Virus record (IMG/VR): IMGVR_UViG_3300025671_000624
Coordinates: 1-21,876 of that record
Strand: one strand, 5' to 3'
Source of the DNA: a virus
DNA: 21,876 nt
The notes under the pieces were generated by a model. The model saw only the letters and a program-made list of their open reading frames with translations, was not told where the DNA came from and made no database searches. Position 1 is the stretch's first letter. Every line of letters begins with the position of its first letter. A program made the translations under genes and the position numbers. Positions 448 to 19,389 of the stretch are shown here, piece after piece.

Positions 448-831
448 CTATTTCTTTCCAAAGAATTTAGTTGCGCTACGTACTCCAAAAGAAGCGGCAA
501 CGATAACTCCCAAGGAATATTGATACCATTCAGGCATTGAGTTGAGTTGCGCAAATCCGTTTGCAACTATTTCTTCCATACCCGGTATGAACGCAAGAAC
601 AAGAGGTAGACTGAACAGAATTGTAAGCCACTCGTCTTTCCACGATGACTGACTACCTTTAGCCATTTCCAAATCCCAGTCAATCTCGCCAGTAGCTTTT
701 CTTTCCATGACTGTAGCTTCTGCTTTAGCCCTTGCCACTTTTGTTGCAGCTTCTGCTTTAGTTTTTTCAACTTTTCCATCTAACCATGTCCCCGCTAAAT
801 TAGCAATTGGTCCAATCAATAAATTCAACAT
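448..831 (-). CDS. Holin of the 3TM (GTA-holin-like) type
   Basis: A protein of 127 residues. A hydrophobic N-terminus (about 3-14) is followed by an Ala/Lys/Glu-rich stretch (20-60) likely to be helical, then the WKDEWLTILFSLPLVLAFIPG-type segment (about 64-84) and a third hydrophobic helix (103-120) ending in a basic tail. The W-DEW-T-F-PL-FIPG pattern is typical of the holin family found in gene transfer agents and marine phages (GTA_holin_3TM), here recognised from memory. Its role would be to permeabilise the inner membrane so that the lysozyme reaches the wall. The start at 831 shares one base with the stop of the upstream basic protein (TAATG). Confidence 0.75.
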   Translation of the reverse strand: MLNLLIGPIANLAGTWLDGKVEKTKAEAATKVARAKAEATVMERKATGEIDWDLEMAKGSQSSWKDEWLTILFSLPLVLAFIPGMEEIVANGFAQLNSMPEWYQYSLGVIVAASFGVRSATKFFGKK

Positions 832-1070
832 TAGCCTCTCCGAAACCTTGCTGTCTTCTTTGCAATACCTTTAGGCTGTGCTACGTGCTGTTTACCTGCA
901 GCCTTACCTTTTCTCTTAGCCCTAGTTGTAGCAGAGTACTCCGCACTTGTCAAGGACTTTATTGCTTTTTCAGGTAAATATCTTTCTCCTGTCTTTGCAG
1001 AAGGCTTGCCTGATTTAGTACGCCACTTCTGTGCTGTCCAGTTTTTTAAACTCTGCTGTGGTTTTTTCAT
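831..1070 (-). CDS. Small basic protein (DUF5872-like)
   Basis: 79 residues, very rich in Lys, Arg, Ala and Ser, with no membrane segment. The pattern SLKNWTxQKWRTKSGKPS, then GERYLPEKAIKSL, then SATTRAKRKGKAAGKQ is one I associate with a conserved small protein of marine phages (DUF5872, name from memory). Its function is unknown; the high positive charge suggests nucleic-acid or virion contact, which is inference. It begins inside the 3' end of the upstream membrane-protein gene (ATGA overlap) and ends sharing one base with the holin start, so it belongs to the same transcript. Confidence 0.75.
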   Translation of the reverse strand: MKKPQQSLKNWTAQKWRTKSGKPSAKTGERYLPEKAIKSLTSAEYSATTRAKRKGKAAGKQHVAQPKGIAKKTARFRRG

Positions 1071-1774
1071 TGTAGTTTTTCCCTAATTGACTTCAGTGTT
1101 TCCTTCAGTGTGGGTTCGTCTTTTTCACGTGGATTATAAATGCACTGATACTGCCGTGGACAAAACTCGCTAATCGTTATAGTTTCGATTGTATTGTTTG
1201 CGCCTTTATACGTACAGATATATTCTGTGTATGGATTTTCTTTTACCTTAGTTCTTTCATAGGCAACCAGTCTACATGTAGTCCACTTTATCTCGTCTGC
1301 CCTAGCTTGCTTAGACATAAGGAACATAATAAAAGAGTAAAGAATTGCTGCAGCTAGTCCAAGCATAACAATCCATGCCACAATCTCTACAAACTTTTGT
1401 CTACGTTCACGCTGTCTATATAGAGTCTGCTGTCGCTGCTTACGTATCTGACCTTCCATACGAACTAGGTCATCCCATTTAGACCTACCCATAGTCAGGC
1501 TAATCCACTGTTGCAGTTCGTATCGCTGTGCTGCTGCCTTTTCTTTGTTAGCAAAAGCAGTAATAGCTTCTTCTTCAATGCTTGCGCCACTAAATAGCTT
1601 CTTGAAGATAGGTGGGTTCTTGGCTTCCTTCTGCGCTTGGTCAATATCACTTAGCGCACCCATCCAGCGAGACAAGTCACCAGCCATAGACTCAATGTCA
1701 CGACCTACTTGCATCCCCTTTTTGATAGCACCGAAAGCAGCCGATGCTGTAGCCATTGCGCTAATAGGGTCCAT
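1067..1774 (-). CDS. Single-pass membrane protein with four-Cys C-terminal domain
   Basis: 235 residues, not assigned to a named family. The N-terminal 128 residues are soluble and mostly helical; residues 98-127 are rich in Arg, Gln and Lys and could form a coiled coil. One strong membrane helix follows at about 129-152, then a C-terminal domain with four cysteines (C167, C187, C205, C211). Basic residues before the helix and the cysteines after it fit an N-in, C-periplasmic topology with two disulfides. Its place between the Rieske-like gene and the lysis genes would suit an envelope or spanin-like role, but no spanin signature is visible. It starts directly after the TAG of the upstream gene. 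Confidence 0.72.
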   Translation of the reverse strand: MDPISAMATASAAFGAIKKGMQVGRDIESMAGDLSRWMGALSDIDQAQKEAKNPPIFKKLFSGASIEEEAITAFANKEKAAAQRYELQQWISLTMGRSKWDDLVRMEGQIRKQRQQTLYRQRERRQKFVEIVAWIVMLGLAAAILYSFIMFLMSKQARADEIKWTTCRLVAYERTKVKENPYTEYICTYKGANNTIETITISEFCPRQYQCIYNPREKDEPTLKETLKSIREKLQ

Positions 1775-2866
1775 CTATGCAGCTTCTTCCGCTAGTTCTT
1801 CTACAGGATTCTGTGCTGATACGCCCATCCACTTAGACCACTCAGCGTAGTAGTGACGCATACCCACCTCATCGTGGATTGTGCCGCCTTCGTGTCGCCC
1901 ATGCAGGATGTTACGTGGCTCTGTGCCTGTACGCATTGTAGTCCCTTGACCAGCTACGCCAATCAAGTCTTCGTGTAGGTTACGACCAAACGGCCCCCAG
2001 ATAGAGTTGTGGTGTTCAATACGTGTGGCTCTATCTTCTGGGCTGTCACTCTTCAAGCCGTAGCCACGGAACTCAATCAGTACCTTGTTAGGTCCAAGTG
2101 GGGTTACGCTATCGCTACGGTACGCACTGCCACGTAAGTTGAAGTTAAAGCCGGGGAACAGGTCAACCATATACCACTGGTTTGGTGGCAGGTTAGGGAA
2201 AGATAACTCACCTCTGTCTTCAAAGCCTTCATACTCTTCGTAGTTCACTGTGAAGCTAGATACGTTTACGTGTCCGTTGTTGAATGGTATGTTCTTACGG
2301 GCAAAGTATGCATCGTTAAATCCTGTGACTCTATTGTGGTAGTGCATGAAGTCATGGTAGAACTCACTGTTAGTGTCATGCCACAGTTTGTAGTTCGTGT
2401 CAATAATAGCCTTGTGGTAGTGAAACACTTCTAGTGGTTCAGTATTGATAGCATCATCAATGCAGTCAAACGCACCATCTAGCCACTGCTCAAGTCCCTG
2501 TGTAGGATTACGGTCTAGTGTAGTCCACACCATCCCACCGTAGGCTACCTCTGTGTGTAGCTTATCCCATGCAGCATAATCTAGTTCAGACAGATTACCT
2601 GCCACTCGCATAATGCCGGGGTTGTGATACAGATAGGCTTGGATGCCATCAGCCTCATGTGCAATCAATACATTCTTGTGTGCAATCTGTGATGTACGAT
2701 AACGTCCTACTTCTGGTAGTTCACTCTCGTGGCACACTGGCACCCATACTTTAGCAAATATCTTTTCAATCTCTTGCTCATATAGGTCATAGTCAGAATA
2801 GATAAGCGAACTGATGTGTTCTATGCTGGGGGTCTTAGTCCATTGTTTATGATTACGTGGCGGCAT
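1775..2866 (-). CDS. Rieske-type oxygenase-like protein lacking the [2Fe-2S] ligands
   Basis: 363 residues, clearly related to the alpha subunits of Rieske non-heme iron oxygenases. The N-terminal block EKIFAKVWVPVCHESELPEVG (36-54) and the stretch LHTEVAYGGMVWTTLD (103-118) match the family before and after the Rieske site, but the CxH...CxxH ligands that should lie between them are absent. Only C45 and C135 remain, neither in such a motif. The catalytic half is recognisable: NYKLWHDTNSEFYH (158-171) and WGPFGRNLHED (290-300), with E168, H171 and D300 at the places of the bridging acid and mononuclear-iron ligands. The second His is shifted (H175 or H177, with Tyr at the usual position). HMO-2011 is remembered as carrying a methanesulfonate monooxygenase-like gene. 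Substrate and activity are unknown. Confidence 0.8.
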   Translation of the reverse strand: MPPRNHKQWTKTPSIEHISSLIYSDYDLYEQEIEKIFAKVWVPVCHESELPEVGRYRTSQIAHKNVLIAHEADGIQAYLYHNPGIMRVAGNLSELDYAAWDKLHTEVAYGGMVWTTLDRNPTQGLEQWLDGAFDCIDDAINTEPLEVFHYHKAIIDTNYKLWHDTNSEFYHDFMHYHNRVTGFNDAYFARKNIPFNNGHVNVSSFTVNYEEYEGFEDRGELSFPNLPPNQWYMVDLFPGFNFNLRGSAYRSDSVTPLGPNKVLIEFRGYGLKSDSPEDRATRIEHHNSIWGPFGRNLHEDLIGVAGQGTTMRTGTEPRNILHGRHEGGTIHDEVGMRHYYAEWSKWMGVSAQNPVEELAEEAA

Positions 2867-3096
2867 TAATAAAGTTTTACATCCTCTGGGTTTACATATC
2901 TGGGTACACAGTACGCAGTTACTCTATCTTTTGGGTCTATTAGATATTTGTATTGGTAGTTACCGTAGCGTTTAGTAACACGCGAGGCAAAGTAATTACA
3001 TTCGTTTATATCACGAAAGTACATATCACCACTTTCTAGTCTACGTGCATCCCCGGTTCCCAGATAAACGAGAAGCAGGAATACGTGTGCGGTCAC
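2866..3096 (-). CDS. Small protein, possibly exported, unknown function
   Basis: 76 residues beginning at a GTG at 3096 that overlaps the upstream stop (GTGA), with a GGTGG stretch just upstream. The N-terminus (AHVFLLLVYLG) is hydrophobic and may be a short signal peptide or anchor. The rest is polar and aromatic with two cysteines (C33, C63), compatible with one disulfide after export. No family is recognised. It lies immediately before the Rieske-like gene and shares one base with its start (TAATG), so translation is probably coupled. Confidence 0.65.
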   Translation of the reverse strand: MTAHVFLLLVYLGTGDARRLESGDMYFRDINECNYFASRVTKRYGNYQYKYLIDPKDRVTAYCVPRYVNPEDVKLY

Positions 3097-13609: not shown

Positions 13610-14443
13610 ATGCTAGAATATATTCCAGAACATCTCGACTTTGAGGTAGAGTTTGAACCTACTAAAGTTGAAGATAAGAAGTATGTTATCAATGGCGATA
13701 CAGGTGAGTACATTGGTGTCGTAGGCAATGGTTTTACCTGCGCCAATCATGGTGACTTCTTCCGCAAAGTTATGGACACGACAACTGAAACACTGTCAGA
13801 ACATGACATGGAAGACGCACACATTAGCTGGCGTAGCGCACACAAGGATGGCTGGGCTATGATGGACATGACCCTGCCCAACGTGACAGCTAAGATTGCT
13901 ACTGACAAGCATGAGACTACACTAATGAAGCGTATCATTGCCCTGCATGGTGTGAATGGTACTTGTTCTAACACCACCATCTTTGGTGCTATCGACTTCT
14001 TCTGTCTCAATGGGCAGATACGTGGCAAGCATGACAAGGTGATGCGTAAGAACACCAGTGGCTTCAACATAGACAAGTTCATCACTGAACTGCATAAGTC
14101 TCAGCAGGACTTCACTGCACAGGCAGAACAGATGCAACGCTGGGCAAACACTAGCCTAGTCAATGTGGATGTTAAGGACATGCTTGAAACATTACTCAAG
14201 TCTGACCGTAAGGCAGAGAAGATGCACATCTTATATAACCAAGAGGTAGCCACACGTGGACACAACCTGTGGTCACTGTATTCTGCCTTCACCAACTACG
14301 CTACCTATGCAGATGAACGCAATGGTTTTACTCAGCGTAACACTGGCGGTGATACACAAGCTAAGTCATTGTTCATGCGTGAAGTTGAAGTAGCTGGCTG
14401 GGTTGAAAGTCCTGTGTTCAAGTCACTTGCGGTAGCGGCATGA
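13610..14443 (+). CDS. DUF932 family protein
   Basis: 277 residues from ATG 13610 (AGGAG 7 nt upstream; an ATG two codons earlier is too close to it). Features of the DUF932 family, common on phages and plasmids, are visible: GDTGEYIGVVGNGFTCANHGDFF near the N-terminus, ALHGVNGTCSNTTIFGAIDFFCLNGQI in the middle and GHNLWSLYSAFTNYATY near the C-terminus. Function is unknown; members are often near replication or recombination genes. A strong promoter precedes it, and its stop overlaps the start of the recombinase (ATGA), so the two are translated together. Confidence 0.82.
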   Translation: MLEYIPEHLDFEVEFEPTKVEDKKYVINGDTGEYIGVVGNGFTCANHGDFFRKVMDTTTETLSEHDMEDAHISWRSAHKDGWAMMDMTLPNVTAKIATDKHETTLMKRIIALHGVNGTCSNTTIFGAIDFFCLNGQIRGKHDKVMRKNTSGFNIDKFITELHKSQQDFTAQAEQMQRWANTSLVNVDVKDMLETLLKSDRKAEKMHILYNQEVATRGHNLWSLYSAFTNYATYADERNGFTQRNTGGDTQAKSLFMREVEVAGWVESPVFKSLAVAA

Positions 14444-15318
14444 TTACGGTAGATGATTTAGTACAGAAGTATTATACTTCTAATGATTACAATATGTTAC
14501 GCGACAGGTCTAAGAAAGACTATGAATACTTTCTTGGTGTAATGCTTGACAACTTTGCCGATGTAAAGTTTGACGAACTCACTAGCAAGCAAGCTAAACA
14601 TGCGTATGAGGAGTGGGTTGCGCGGGGTATCAGCCTCGCCAACCATGTCTGTACTGTTTCATCTATCGTCTATCGCTACGCTATTGAGATGGAGTATGCA
14701 GAGGTGAACCCATTCGCTAACGTCAGACGTAAGACTGCACCACAACGAAAAGTTGTGTGGTCTGAGGATGATGTGCGTCAGTTCCTTGACACTGCATACA
14801 GTGAGTTTCAGTGGCGTAGCCTTGGACTTATCGTACACATGGCCTATGAGTGGTGTCAGCGACTAGGTGACATGCGCTTATTGACATGGGATAACCTTGA
14901 TTTACCTGAGAAGAAGCTGTATCTTGAGCAGTCTAAGCGTAGGGCAGAGGTAACTTTGCCTATCGAAGATGACTTGCTTGAGATGCTGACCCAGCAGGAG
15001 CAAGACTTTGGCTTTCAAAGCTACGTTGCTCCGCGTACAAGCCCCACACAGGGCGAGTACCACCCATACAGCATGGAGAGGCTATCGAAAGCTGGAAGGG
15101 CTGTCATGCGCGAAGCTGGACTGCCTGACGAGTTACGACTGATGGACTTGCGGCGCACTGGTACGACACAGATGGTCGAAGCTGGTGTGTCTATGGGACA
15201 AATCATGTCGGTAACAGGACATAGTAACCCACAGTCAGTTAAACCTTACATGAAAAATACGTATGCCTCTGCAAATAATGCATTGACAGCACGTAAATCT
15301 CATGGTAAAAGCACTTAA
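14440..15318 (+). CDS. int: Tyrosine recombinase (integrase family)
   Basis: 292 residues. An N-terminal SAM-like core-binding domain (about 1-100) precedes the catalytic domain. Catalytic residues: R141 (WCQRLGDM), K166 (QSKRRAE), R238 (MDLRRTGTT), H261 (VTGHSNP) and nucleophile Y270 (SVKPY), with H261 to Y270 at the usual 9-residue distance. The His of the HxxR motif is replaced by Met (M235), a position that varies in the family. The enzyme cuts and rejoins DNA at att sites or resolves genome multimers; no repressor, excisionase or tRNA att site is visible in the window. It lies between DUF932 and the primase. Confidence 0.88.
   Translation: MITVDDLVQKYYTSNDYNMLRDRSKKDYEYFLGVMLDNFADVKFDELTSKQAKHAYEEWVARGISLANHVCTVSSIVYRYAIEMEYAEVNPFANVRRKTAPQRKVVWSEDDVRQFLDTAYSEFQWRSLGLIVHMAYEWCQRLGDMRLLTWDNLDLPEKKLYLEQSKRRAEVTLPIEDDLLEMLTQQEQDFGFQSYVAPRTSPTQGEYHPYSMERLSKAGRAVMREAGLPDELRLMDLRRTGTTQMVEAGVSMGQIMSVTGHSNPQSVKPYMKNTYASANNALTARKSHGKST
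15283..15311 (+). promoter_or_regulatory. Possible promoter for primase operon
   Basis: TTGACA (15283-15288), 17-nt spacer, TGG then TAAAAG (15306-15311). The -35 is perfect and an extended -10 TG is present, but the -10 hexamer is weak. It lies in the last codons of the recombinase gene, 32 nt before the primase ATG. Confidence 0.4.
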
Positions 15319-16126: not shown

Positions 16127-17350
16127 ATGGAACTTACACTTATAAGAAGCCTAATGGATAAAGAGTTCTACGATGACCATCGTGGTTCGCGCTGTCCAAC
16201 ACGCTTGTTCAGCAAGGACGTGCGTAAGATTAAAGAAGCTATTGATACAGCTATGGATAGGTATGAACGTACTGTTACACCTGACGAGATTGAGGCATTG
16301 TTCATGTCGAACAACCCGACACTCACCACTGCACAGAAGCAAGCCTATACATCCCTGTTCAATACCATCAAGCGTGAGCAACCTATGGGTGGTGACGTAG
16401 CACAAGAGGTGCTATCTAAACTATTCCAGCAGGTTATTGGTGAGGACGTAGCCAATATCGGATTCGATATGGTCAACGGCTCTGCCGCTACGCTTGAGAA
16501 GCTACGCAATCTACTTGAGCAGTATGGTGATGACTTCACCCCTAATCTAAAGATTGAGTGGGATGACATCAGCATTGAGACATTGATGGCGAAGGCTGAA
16601 CTAGAAGCCAAGTGGTCATTCAATATACCTAGCGTAGCACGTAAGGTTGAAGGCGTTAGTGCTGGTCAACTGATTGAGGTAGGCGCACGGCCTAACACTG
16701 GCAAGACTTCCTTTCATGCCAGTCTTATAGCCGCGCCGGGTGGGTTCGCATCACAGGGTGCTAGATGTGTCATCCTGTGTAATGAGGAACCCACCCACCG
16801 TGTTGGTGCTAGGTATCTGACAGCCGCCGCTGGTATGTCAGCACGTGATGTCAAGTCTAACATGGCAATGGCTAAGTCATTGTATGAACCAGTGATGAAT
16901 AACATCAAGATTAAAGAAGCTGGTGGACGTGACATGGCGTGGGTTGAATCTGTATGTAAGTCGTACAAGCCTGACATTCTTGTGCTTGACATGGGTGATA
17001 AGTTCCAGACTGCTGGTGGCTTCTCTCGCCCTGACGAGGCACTCAAGGCTTGCGCTATTCATGCTAGGCAGATTGCCAAGACGTATGACTGTGCTGTATT
17101 CTATATGTCTCAGCTATCCGCAGAGGCAGAAGGACGGTCACAACTTAATCAGTCTATGATGGAAGGTTCACGTACTGGTAAGGCGGCAGAGGCTGACCTT
17201 ATGATACTGATTGGTAAGTCACCTACTGTTGAAGGACAGGAAGAGGATAGCCCACTACGTCACATGAACATCGTGAAGAACAAGCTGAATGGCTGGCACG
17301 GCATGGTGAACTGTGAGTTGGACTATCTGACAGCGAGGTATGAAGGATGA
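16127..17350 (+). CDS. Replicative DNA helicase (DnaB / T7 gp4B-like)
   Basis: 407 residues. Residues 1-165 hold a helical N-terminal region; the RecA-like ATPase core has the P-loop GARPNTGKTS (186-195) and Walker B DILVLDMGD (283-291), then YMSQLSAEAEGRSQ (327-340), with NQSMMEGSRTGKAAEADLMI in the DNA-loop/arginine-finger region. The hexamer unwinds the fork 5' to 3' together with the separate primase upstream. AGGAG is 9 nt before the ATG. The end overlaps the polymerase start by 4 nt (ATGA). Confidence 0.92.
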   Translation: MELTLIRSLMDKEFYDDHRGSRCPTRLFSKDVRKIKEAIDTAMDRYERTVTPDEIEALFMSNNPTLTTAQKQAYTSLFNTIKREQPMGGDVAQEVLSKLFQQVIGEDVANIGFDMVNGSAATLEKLRNLLEQYGDDFTPNLKIEWDDISIETLMAKAELEAKWSFNIPSVARKVEGVSAGQLIEVGARPNTGKTSFHASLIAAPGGFASQGARCVILCNEEPTHRVGARYLTAAAGMSARDVKSNMAMAKSLYEPVMNNIKIKEAGGRDMAWVESVCKSYKPDILVLDMGDKFQTAGGFSRPDEALKACAIHARQIAKTYDCAVFYMSQLSAEAEGRSQLNQSMMEGSRTGKAAEADLMILIGKSPTVEGQEEDSPLRHMNIVKNKLNGWHGMVNCELDYLTARYEG

Positions 17351-19389
17351 AGCTAACACTTGATGTAGAAAACACTACGGTAACTAGAGATGGTCGCCTT
17401 TACCTTGACCCCTTTGAGCCAGAGAACTCACTGACTATGGTTGGTATGCTTACAGACCAAGGCGTTGAACGTATTGTTACCTTTGACCACAGTGAGGTGG
17501 ATGCAGATGAAGGTGGACACGTACTGGTACAGGAGTTCCTTGATGCCGCTACTGTTCTTATCATGCACAATGCCGCACATGATTTGCTGTGGCTTTGGGA
17601 GTCTGGCTTCAAGTATGATGGTGCTGTCTTTGACACGATGCTTGCAGAGTATGTGCTACAGCGTGGTATCAAAGAGCCGCTATCACTTGAGGCTTGTGCT
17701 GAACGCTATGAGTTGGACACTAAGAAGCAAGATACACTCAAAGAGTACTTCAAGAAAGGCTACTCTACTCGTGACATTCCTCACGCTGAGTTGTCTGAGT
17801 ATTTATCTGCTGACTTACATGCTACACAGCAACTGTCTGACAGGTTGGTATACCGCCTCAACACACAAGCTGATGCACGGCTTATGCCTACAGTGACACT
17901 CACCAATGAGGTAGCTGTGTGCCTTTCACGTATCTATCAGCGTGGTTTCAGTGTTGACGTTACCAAGCTGGATGAAGTGCGTCAAGAATTTGAACAAGAG
18001 AAGCGTCAGCTTATTGACGATTTGCAGGTTCATGTACGTAAGCTGATGGGTGATACACCTATCAACCTCAACAGCCCAGAGCAATTGTCATGGGTTATCT
18101 ACAGCCGCAAGGTATTGGACAAGCCTTATTGGGGTAACGCTATTGACCCTTATATGCCAGATGCAGACTTTAATAGTTTAGTGGCTGGCGGTACAGAACG
18201 TGTGTACAAGACAACAGCAGAGCAGTGCAATGAATGTAATGGTACTGGAAAGATAAGAAAGGTAAAGGTCGATGGAACACTTTATACAAGACATCACACT
18301 TGTAAAACATGTGGTGGTGCTGGTTATAATCTGGTCAATCTATCTACTCTTGCGGGATTAAAGTTCAAACCACCTTCCGCGAAGTGGGCTAGTGCTAATG
18401 GATTCACTACCAGCAAAACTAACCTTGAGTTACTTGAGTCTGTCGCTAAATCTAAAGGTATGACAGACGCAGTTGACTTCCTATCTAAAGTTCGCAGGTT
18501 GTCAGCCGTATATCTTTATCTGTCATCATTTGTTGATGGCATTAGTAGGAATATTAAGAAAGACGGAAAGCTGCATGTCCGTCTACTACAGCACCGCACC
18601 TTTACTGGTAGGTTCTCTGGTGCTGACCCTAACATGCAGAACATGCCGCGCGGCGGCACCTTCCCTGTTAAGAAGGTATTCGTATCACGGTTTGCTGGTG
18701 GTAAGGTAATGGAAGCTGACTTTGCACAGCTTGAGTTTCGCGCCGCCGCATTCCTATCACAAGATGGAGTTGCAATTGAAGAAGTCTCTACTGGATTTGA
18801 TGTACATGCATATACCGCTAAAGTTATTACCGATGCTGGTCAACATACGTCTCGCCAAGATGCGAAGGCGCACACGTTTGCACCACTCTACGGTGCCAGC
18901 GGATACGGACGAACAAAAGCCGAAGCCGCATACTACGAACACTTCAACGAGAAGTACAAGGGGGTCTCAGCTTGGCATTCCCGACTGGCTAAAGAAGCTG
19001 TAAACACTAGGCACATTACTACACCATCAGGTAGGCAGTTCGCTTTCCCTGACGTTGTACGTAGGGCTAACGGTACAGTATCATTCTTTACTCAGATTAA
19101 GAACTACCCTGTGCAATCATTTGCTACTGCAGACATTGTACCTGTTGCACTGCTACACATTGATGCCTTACTCAAGGACATGCGTAGTTGTGTGGTCAAT
19201 TCAGTACACGACAGTATAGTTATTGACGTGCATCCTGATGAAGAACAGCAGGTAATCAAGGTCATACAGGACACGAATGATGCACTACCTTCACTCATCA
19301 CATCTCGTTGGGGTGTGGTGTTCAATGTTCCACTACTATTAGAAGCAAAAATAGGAAAGAATTGGCTTGACGTAGTGGATGTAACCTGA
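17347..19389 (+). CDS. polA: Family A DNA polymerase with DnaJ-like zinc insert
   Basis: 680 residues. A 3'-5' exonuclease domain has LDVEN (D6, E8), HNAAHD (N75, D79) and YLSAD (D156). The polymerase domain has motif A EADFAQLEFR (D458), motif B RQDAKAHTFAPLYG (R503, K507, F511, Y515) and motif C VHDS (H621, D622). Between the two domains lies an insertion with two CxxCxGxG units, CNECNGTG (294-301) and CKTCGGAG (319-326), like half of the DnaJ zinc region. This architecture was, as I recall, described for HMO-2011. F511 is at the site equivalent to E. coli Phe762. The gene starts within the helicase stop. Confidence 0.95.
   Translation: MKLTLDVENTTVTRDGRLYLDPFEPENSLTMVGMLTDQGVERIVTFDHSEVDADEGGHVLVQEFLDAATVLIMHNAAHDLLWLWESGFKYDGAVFDTMLAEYVLQRGIKEPLSLEACAERYELDTKKQDTLKEYFKKGYSTRDIPHAELSEYLSADLHATQQLSDRLVYRLNTQADARLMPTVTLTNEVAVCLSRIYQRGFSVDVTKLDEVRQEFEQEKRQLIDDLQVHVRKLMGDTPINLNSPEQLSWVIYSRKVLDKPYWGNAIDPYMPDADFNSLVAGGTERVYKTTAEQCNECNGTGKIRKVKVDGTLYTRHHTCKTCGGAGYNLVNLSTLAGLKFKPPSAKWASANGFTTSKTNLELLESVAKSKGMTDAVDFLSKVRRLSAVYLYLSSFVDGISRNIKKDGKLHVRLLQHRTFTGRFSGADPNMQNMPRGGTFPVKKVFVSRFAGGKVMEADFAQLEFRAAAFLSQDGVAIEEVSTGFDVHAYTAKVITDAGQHTSRQDAKAHTFAPLYGASGYGRTKAEAAYYEHFNEKYKGVSAWHSRLAKEAVNTRHITTPSGRQFAFPDVVRRANGTVSFFTQIKNYPVQSFATADIVPVALLHIDALLKDMRSCVVNSVHDSIVIDVHPDEEQQVIKVIQDTNDALPSLITSRWGVVFNVPLLLEAKIGKNWLDVVDVT

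Follow-up and report, generated by a model that had tools for sequence, protein, structure and literature searches.

The locus considered here raises the question of whether a phage-borne homologue of MsmA, the alpha subunit of methanesulfonate monooxygenase (MSAMO), can work as an enzyme without a Rieske cluster, and if so, from where its iron would receive electrons. Phages of the HMO-2011 type rank with the most abundant phages of the ocean (PMC9038755, PMC4928673), and the 'methanesulfonate monooxygenase' they encode has been invoked to connect them with the sulfur cycle (PMC4928673). In the portion of PMC4433239 drawn on here, which dates from 2015, CXH-X26-CXXH is given as the defining Rieske motif of MsmA, its absence from HMO-2011 and environmental sequences is already reported, one of two 'MsmA' proteins in IMCC1322, the SAR116 bacterium that is host to HMO-2011, is likewise described as lacking it, and the missing cluster is taken to put the sulfur-cycle link in doubt.

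Genomic Setting and Predicted Fold

The window, by which we mean the whole 21,876-base virus record analysed, is of the HMO-2011 type. Its DNA polymerase, encoded at 17347-19389, is 88.5% identical to that of HMO-2011 and carries the DnaJ-like CXXCXGXG zinc insert that is a hallmark of these phages. An integrase gene (14440-15318; PHROG 1) is also present, and the phage may therefore be temperate. The gene of interest lies on the minus strand at 1775..2866 and encodes a 363-residue MsmA-type alpha subunit, referred to below as iron-only since it is without a Rieske domain, which is 93% identical to gp61 of Puniceispirillum phage HMO-2011, annotated as methanesulfonate monooxygenase. The initial annotation had described the frame as open and not recently frameshifted, and it is indeed intact. 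Three neighbours on the same strand help to place it. A small upstream frame (2866..3096), the counterpart of HMO-2011 gp62, belongs to the same late operon in synteny with HMO-2011, and its stop overlaps the start of the iron-only gene at 2866; a 235-residue frame downstream (1067..1774), also of this operon, matches PHROG 32327, a family of unknown function (E 1.8e-10). Further along, a 127-residue frame (448..831) of the PHROG 2524 family was recognised, by its PHROG match and by comparison with HMO-2011, as the counterpart of gp58, which in HMO-2011 immediately precedes the lysozyme gene, and this lysozyme-adjacent counterpart places the iron-only gene in the late module. In HMO-2011 itself, gp61 is situated upstream of the lysozyme and terminase genes.

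The sole domain that Pfam finds in the 363-residue protein is the catalytic domain PF00848 (E 7e-7, residues 145-348); it finds no Rieske domain there. In an AlphaFold model built on a 35-sequence alignment (mean pLDDT 81, pTM 0.84; confidence is low near residues 177-183), residues 6-349 can be matched to alpha subunits of Rieske oxygenases, best of all to salicylate 5-hydroxylase NagG (Z 31.7). The protein is thus predicted to have the alpha-subunit fold of a Rieske non-heme iron oxygenase, including the PF00848 domain.

Loss of the Rieske Cluster

Relatives of this protein occur on at least 598 viral contigs, and 140 viral copies were examined. Not one of the four Rieske ligands is kept in these 140, nor in any of 19 relatives from bacterial assemblies, and the CXH-X26-CXXH motif expected of an MSAMO alpha subunit is accordingly found in 0/140 and 0/19. 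By comparison, the motif is present in all 63 intact MsmA sequences (one with a masked letter) and in all 15 of the host partners described below. The Rieske-intact MsmA proteins recovered in the genome scan are of ~412 residues, have 50-60% identity to the iron-only protein and retain CXH-X26-CXXH. Aligned with them, the window protein is missing ~50 residues between residues ~80 and 103, within what is now a hypervariable linker (residues 53-102; 2561..2710, minus strand) that the MsmA alignment and the dN/dS values mark as the place where the Rieske segment was lost. The loss of the cluster is a fixed trait of the family. A sequencing error or a local deletion was considered and is ruled out, none of the 140 viral and 19 bacterial-assembly relatives having the cluster.

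These observations bear out what had been noticed at the outset, a homologue of Rieske oxygenases that has no Rieske cluster, both by Pfam and by the lack of ligands in all 159 iron-only relatives. The missing stretch had been put at 25-30 residues, which is too small, though the loss itself is real. Two findings had been named that would speak against the description, ligands lying elsewhere in the chain and relatives commonly bearing an intact motif. No CXH...CXXH occurs anywhere in the chain of any iron-only copy, viral or bacterial-assembly, and no relative among the 140 and 19 has the motif intact. There being no Rieske [2Fe-2S] cluster within the same chain, the protein cannot use one of its own, and the suggestion that electrons do not arrive in the usual way holds.

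The Iron Site and Selection upon It

The iron half presents a very different picture. The iron-site helix NYKLWHDTNSEFYHDFMHYHN (residues 158-178; 2333..2395, minus strand) bears the bridging E168 and the proposed ligands H171 and H175, and the segment GRNLHEDLIGVAGQG (residues 294-308; 1943..1987, minus strand) bears the carboxylate ligand D300; both were delineated by invariance. E168, H171, H175, Y176 and D300 are identical across the 140 phage copies, the 19 bacterial-assembly iron-only proteins and the 63 intact MsmA, and the mononuclear iron residues expected of MsmA are therefore all in place. The motif E-[FY]-Y-H-D-x-x-H is kept in 140/140 viral copies, and the longer active-site string NYKLWHDTN(S/C)EFYHD(F/Y)(M/L/V)HYHN is common to iron-only proteins and intact MsmA. 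E299 and D300 are likewise invariant in the phage, iron-only and MsmA sets, and are absent in 15/15 Rieske-only partners.

The position of the canonical second histidine is occupied by Y176, flanked by H175 and H177. The initial annotation, which was right about the retention of E168, H171 and D300, also correctly saw a tyrosine between two histidines, but read it as the mark of an altered site, whereas it is the standard state of MsmA; an iron site altered by Tyr176 is ruled out, as tyrosine stands there in 63/63 Rieske-intact sequences. Given that Y176 is invariant in those 63, that H175 is invariant everywhere, and that H177 is often phenylalanine (101/140 phage copies), the normal ligands of an MsmA-type enzyme are probably H171, H175 and D300, an assignment we infer from conservation, and nothing would then have been lost from the iron site.

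Selection along the chain is strikingly uneven. Median dN/dS, at 0.44 in residues 53-102, falls to 0.024 in the iron domain (residues 145-350), and mean identity between phage copies is 39% in the former and 93% in the latter; phage and bacterial iron-only proteins are 90% identical in the iron domain. The iron half is under very strong purifying selection and has not decayed. Phage copies with near-identical iron domains bear very different linkers (residues 53-102, window 2561-2710), a variation suggestive of exchanged segments or of adjustment to particular partners.

It had been proposed that the protein is a repurposed one, structural or substrate-binding, and in favour of this is the position of its gene in HMO-2011-type phages, within the late module of structural and lysis genes. 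With the iron domain so strongly constrained (dN/dS 0.024), every catalytic residue invariant, and ~90% identity in this domain to bacterial iron-only proteins, the proposal finds no support; in other phages, moreover, the gene occupies other genomic places, e.g. between terminase-like and portal-like genes. We consider this reading hardly credible.

A Reciprocal Paralogue in SAR116 Bacteria

In SAR116 bacteria the iron-only gene shares an operon-like neighbourhood with a second MsmA paralogue of ~800 residues, which runs from a Rieske domain that is intact and has the MsmA-type spacer of 26 residues, through an MsmA catalytic domain without an iron site, to an NADH:ferredoxin reductase (PF07992 and PF14759). 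The ligand pattern of this partner is the mirror image of that of the iron-only protein: among 15 sequences the Rieske ligands are kept in 15/15, D300 in 0/15, E168 and H171 in 0/15, and H175 in at most one. In one genome (G093) the iron motif can still be recognised, with E168 replaced by K, H171 by Q and H175 by K. The fold matches of a modelled 798-residue partner were taken up by its reductase half, which resembles ferredoxin reductases, BphA4 and putidaredoxin reductase among them (Z ~40). The division of MsmA function between two paralogues with reciprocal ligand loss is thus shown for SAR116 hosts at the level of sequence.

The same neighbourhood encodes an ABC transporter, a substrate-binding protein, a LysR regulator and a TauE-type sulfite exporter, together with MsmB-like and MsmC-like genes, a PanB-like protein and a ~280-residue protein of unknown family; C1-folate genes (formate-THF ligase, FolD) are found in most cases. 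A minority of the genomes have a rearranged order, and dmsABC-like genes intervene in G093. The ~280-residue protein, which has no known Pfam family, is encoded upstream of the iron-only gene (L082:6953-7792, L187:16055-16885) and is conserved, with ~51% identity between SAR116 subclades; by analogy with NdmE for NdmC/NdmD, it might be an assembly factor.

Among 136 genomes of the SAR116 order, both halves are encoded in 12 and either half alone in none, although the 12 are related and so do not constitute independent trials. In 12/12 the Rieske-less oxygenase is encoded with the Rieske-reductase fusion, if one counts G006, where the reductase is separate, and G007, where the partner is seen as a contig-end fragment only. 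In G006 (L193:16189-18575) the Rieske/dead-catalytic part (330 residues) and the reductase (465 residues) are separate, overlapping frames. The G093 genome is a single contig of 2,753,527 bases, on which ~9 kb separate the two genes of the pair; an intact MsmA is absent from the rest of this genome. An intact MsmA occurs in one of the 136, G019, which has neither half. There (L191, SAR116 MED-G04), intact MsmA-MsmB-MsmC and a plant-type, MsmD-like ferredoxin reductase adjoin the same transporter genes, an arrangement that likely represents the unsplit state. A SAR116-type operon was also encountered on short contigs of assemblies labelled Planktomarina and Marinovum (L090, L093); these copies are likely binning contamination.

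That the protein might pair with a host subunit had been offered as an aside, and the presence of a reciprocal partner in every SAR116 genome with an iron-only protein lends it weight; on these sequence grounds, such pairing appears well supported.

Distribution among Phages

No match to the Rieske-only partner was obtained among the viral contigs, and the best matches to intact MsmA among them are all Rieske-less. Twelve long phage contigs contain no family member other than the iron-only gene, and the phage record collection holds no Rieske partner, only unrelated reductases and oxygenases; a phage with a Rieske partner of its own is thereby ruled out across these three sets. A search for MsmB in the 12 long contigs, run without a positive control, gave no match. 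Since the phages have one half only, their protein would have to act on or with host proteins, and one could imagine it as a blocker, competing for the partner and bringing the host's use of methanesulfonate to a halt. A blocker has no need of iron ligands, however, whereas the catalytic residues here are invariant and the dN/dS of 0.024 is that of a working enzyme, and we judge this explanation very improbable.

Among 11 HMO-2011-type isolates, found by way of their DNA polymerase, the iron-only gene is carried by the SAR116 phage only, and is lacking in nine Roseobacter phages and one SAR11 phage. The gene also occurs in other lineages, on contigs of 52-65 kb without an HMO-2011-type polymerase and with other neighbours, and in one such phage type it is located between terminase-like and portal-like genes. 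Confinement to HMO-2011-type phages is ruled out by these near-genome-size contigs. In two bacterial assemblies (L097, Hellea; L095, Rickettsiales) the gene has phage-like surroundings, and in L097 an SbmA/BacA-like transporter gene directly follows it.

This spread over several phage lineages, along with the absence of a Rieske cluster from all 159 copies, would suit an enzyme that has no Rieske partner whatsoever and catalyses a different reaction, either redox-neutral or with another reductant or substrate. Against it are the active-site strings, which are identical to those of intact MsmA, and the bacterial copies, which reside in a methanesulfonate gene neighbourhood beside the mirror-image partner; we give such an enzyme little chance.

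A Proposed Split Methanesulfonate Monooxygenase

The Rieske cluster of one alpha subunit in a Rieske oxygenase delivers its electrons to the iron of the adjacent subunit by way of an acidic residue. Because the transfer is between subunits, loss of the cluster in one chain and of the iron in another is tolerable if both assemble. We think it fairly probable that the window's gene encodes the iron-bearing catalytic half of a split methanesulfonate monooxygenase, with the phage supplying the catalytic subunit to the electron-delivering half of its host. The two host paralogues, probably with MsmB, would assemble such that the partner's Rieske cluster lies beside the iron of the iron-only subunit, which electrons would reach through E168. 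The phage, making the catalytic half only, would dock it onto the host's Rieske-reductase subunit, replacing or supplementing the iron-only subunit of the host. Oxidation of methanesulfonate to formaldehyde and sulfite might in this way be kept up or raised, and infection could be fed with formaldehyde-derived C1 units and sulfite-derived electrons. We favour this reading because of the reciprocal ligand loss, the co-occurrence, the gene neighbourhood and the purifying selection, and also because the SAR116 phage alone among HMO-2011-type isolates carries the gene and a precedent exists in NdmC/NdmD. Methanesulfonate as the substrate is suggested by homology and neighbourhood. Doubt had initially been cast on such a role, but the missing motif is by itself no counter-argument, and the neighbourhood in the host argues for it.

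Several considerations weigh against the split-enzyme reading. Two kinds of subunit cannot alternate one-to-one around a trimer, and some of the phages carrying the gene (L253, L095, L097) belong to other lineages. Furthermore, MsmC, a free Rieske ferredoxin, might reduce the iron-only protein directly. In the fuller form of this last alternative, MsmC or another host ferredoxin docks at the former Rieske site and the Rieske-reductase protein merely feeds MsmC; an MsmC-like Rieske ferredoxin gene is present in the same locus, and the region of the lost cluster (residues 53-102) is free to vary. A mere reductase, however, needs neither an MsmA-type CXH-X26-CXXH nor a dead catalytic scaffold, and the partner's possession of both (15/15) is left unexplained. 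We therefore regard the ferredoxin route as unlikely, though less so than the alternatives weighed above.

Origin of the Two Halves

The Rieske-only partners form one clade within Hyphomicrobiales-type MsmA (SH-aLRT 98), and the iron-only proteins a clade apart from the sampled intact MsmA. Within the latter clade the bacterial sequences group as one clade among those of phages, with phage monophyly not rejected (AU p 0.315). With bacterial iron-only proteins inside phage diversity and the partners inside Hyphomicrobiales-type MsmA, the halves would have different histories, and the tree would allow bacteria to have acquired their iron-only gene from phages. As regards the status of an auxiliary metabolic gene, purifying selection is seen in the phages, and the bearing of the tree on host origin is given by the same test of phage monophyly (AU p 0.315). 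One may tentatively envisage that a phage iron-only MsmA entered the SAR116 chromosome, that the iron site of the host MsmA thus became dispensable and decayed, and that its Rieske part was fused to a reductase, though we find this course of events rather doubtful. The outcome would be an enzyme of two genes, with its catalytic half moving back and forth between the host and abundant ocean phages.

Comparison with Known Systems

Given a reciprocal host subunit, the phage protein can plausibly function as one half of an enzyme, relying on the host for the half that delivers electrons, and annotation by name alone, or by the missing motif alone, misreads both proteins. Were this so, the gene would be a clear auxiliary metabolic gene, albeit one working solely in combination with a degenerate host paralogue, and the pair would provide a second and independent instance of a Rieske oxygenase divided between two polypeptides.

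In sequence, the kinship of the iron-only protein is with MsmA, to which it has 50-60% identity over the aligned length, an identical active-site motif and D300 motif, and, according to the model, the same Rieske oxygenase alpha-subunit fold. Unlike MsmA, it is without CXH-X26-CXXH (~50 residues) and cannot be a self-sufficient alpha subunit. The second 'MsmA' of Candidatus Puniceispirillum marinum IMCC1322 and HMO-2011 gp61 belong to the same family (PMC4433239); in the portion of that source drawn on, neither the loss of the iron site in the host's other 'MsmA' nor a pairing of the two as one enzyme is raised, and we found no published report of a reciprocal split of MsmA.

The likeness to NdmC/NdmD(/NdmE), the caffeine N7-demethylase of Pseudomonas putida CBB5 in which a Rieske-less oxygenase relies on a Rieske domain carried by the reductase (PMC4408171), is one of described architecture: the SAR116 partner, too, is a fusion of Rieske domain and reductase, encoded with a Rieske-less oxygenase that it would serve. 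The systems differ in that both SAR116 halves are MsmA paralogues and the partner retains a dead MsmA catalytic domain, in that the SAR116 reductase belongs with BphA4 and putidaredoxin reductase and not with the FMN-type reductases, and in that an MsmB-like subunit and an MsmC-like ferredoxin are present and one half is phage-borne. The best reading is that the SAR116 split is convergent with that of NdmC/NdmD.
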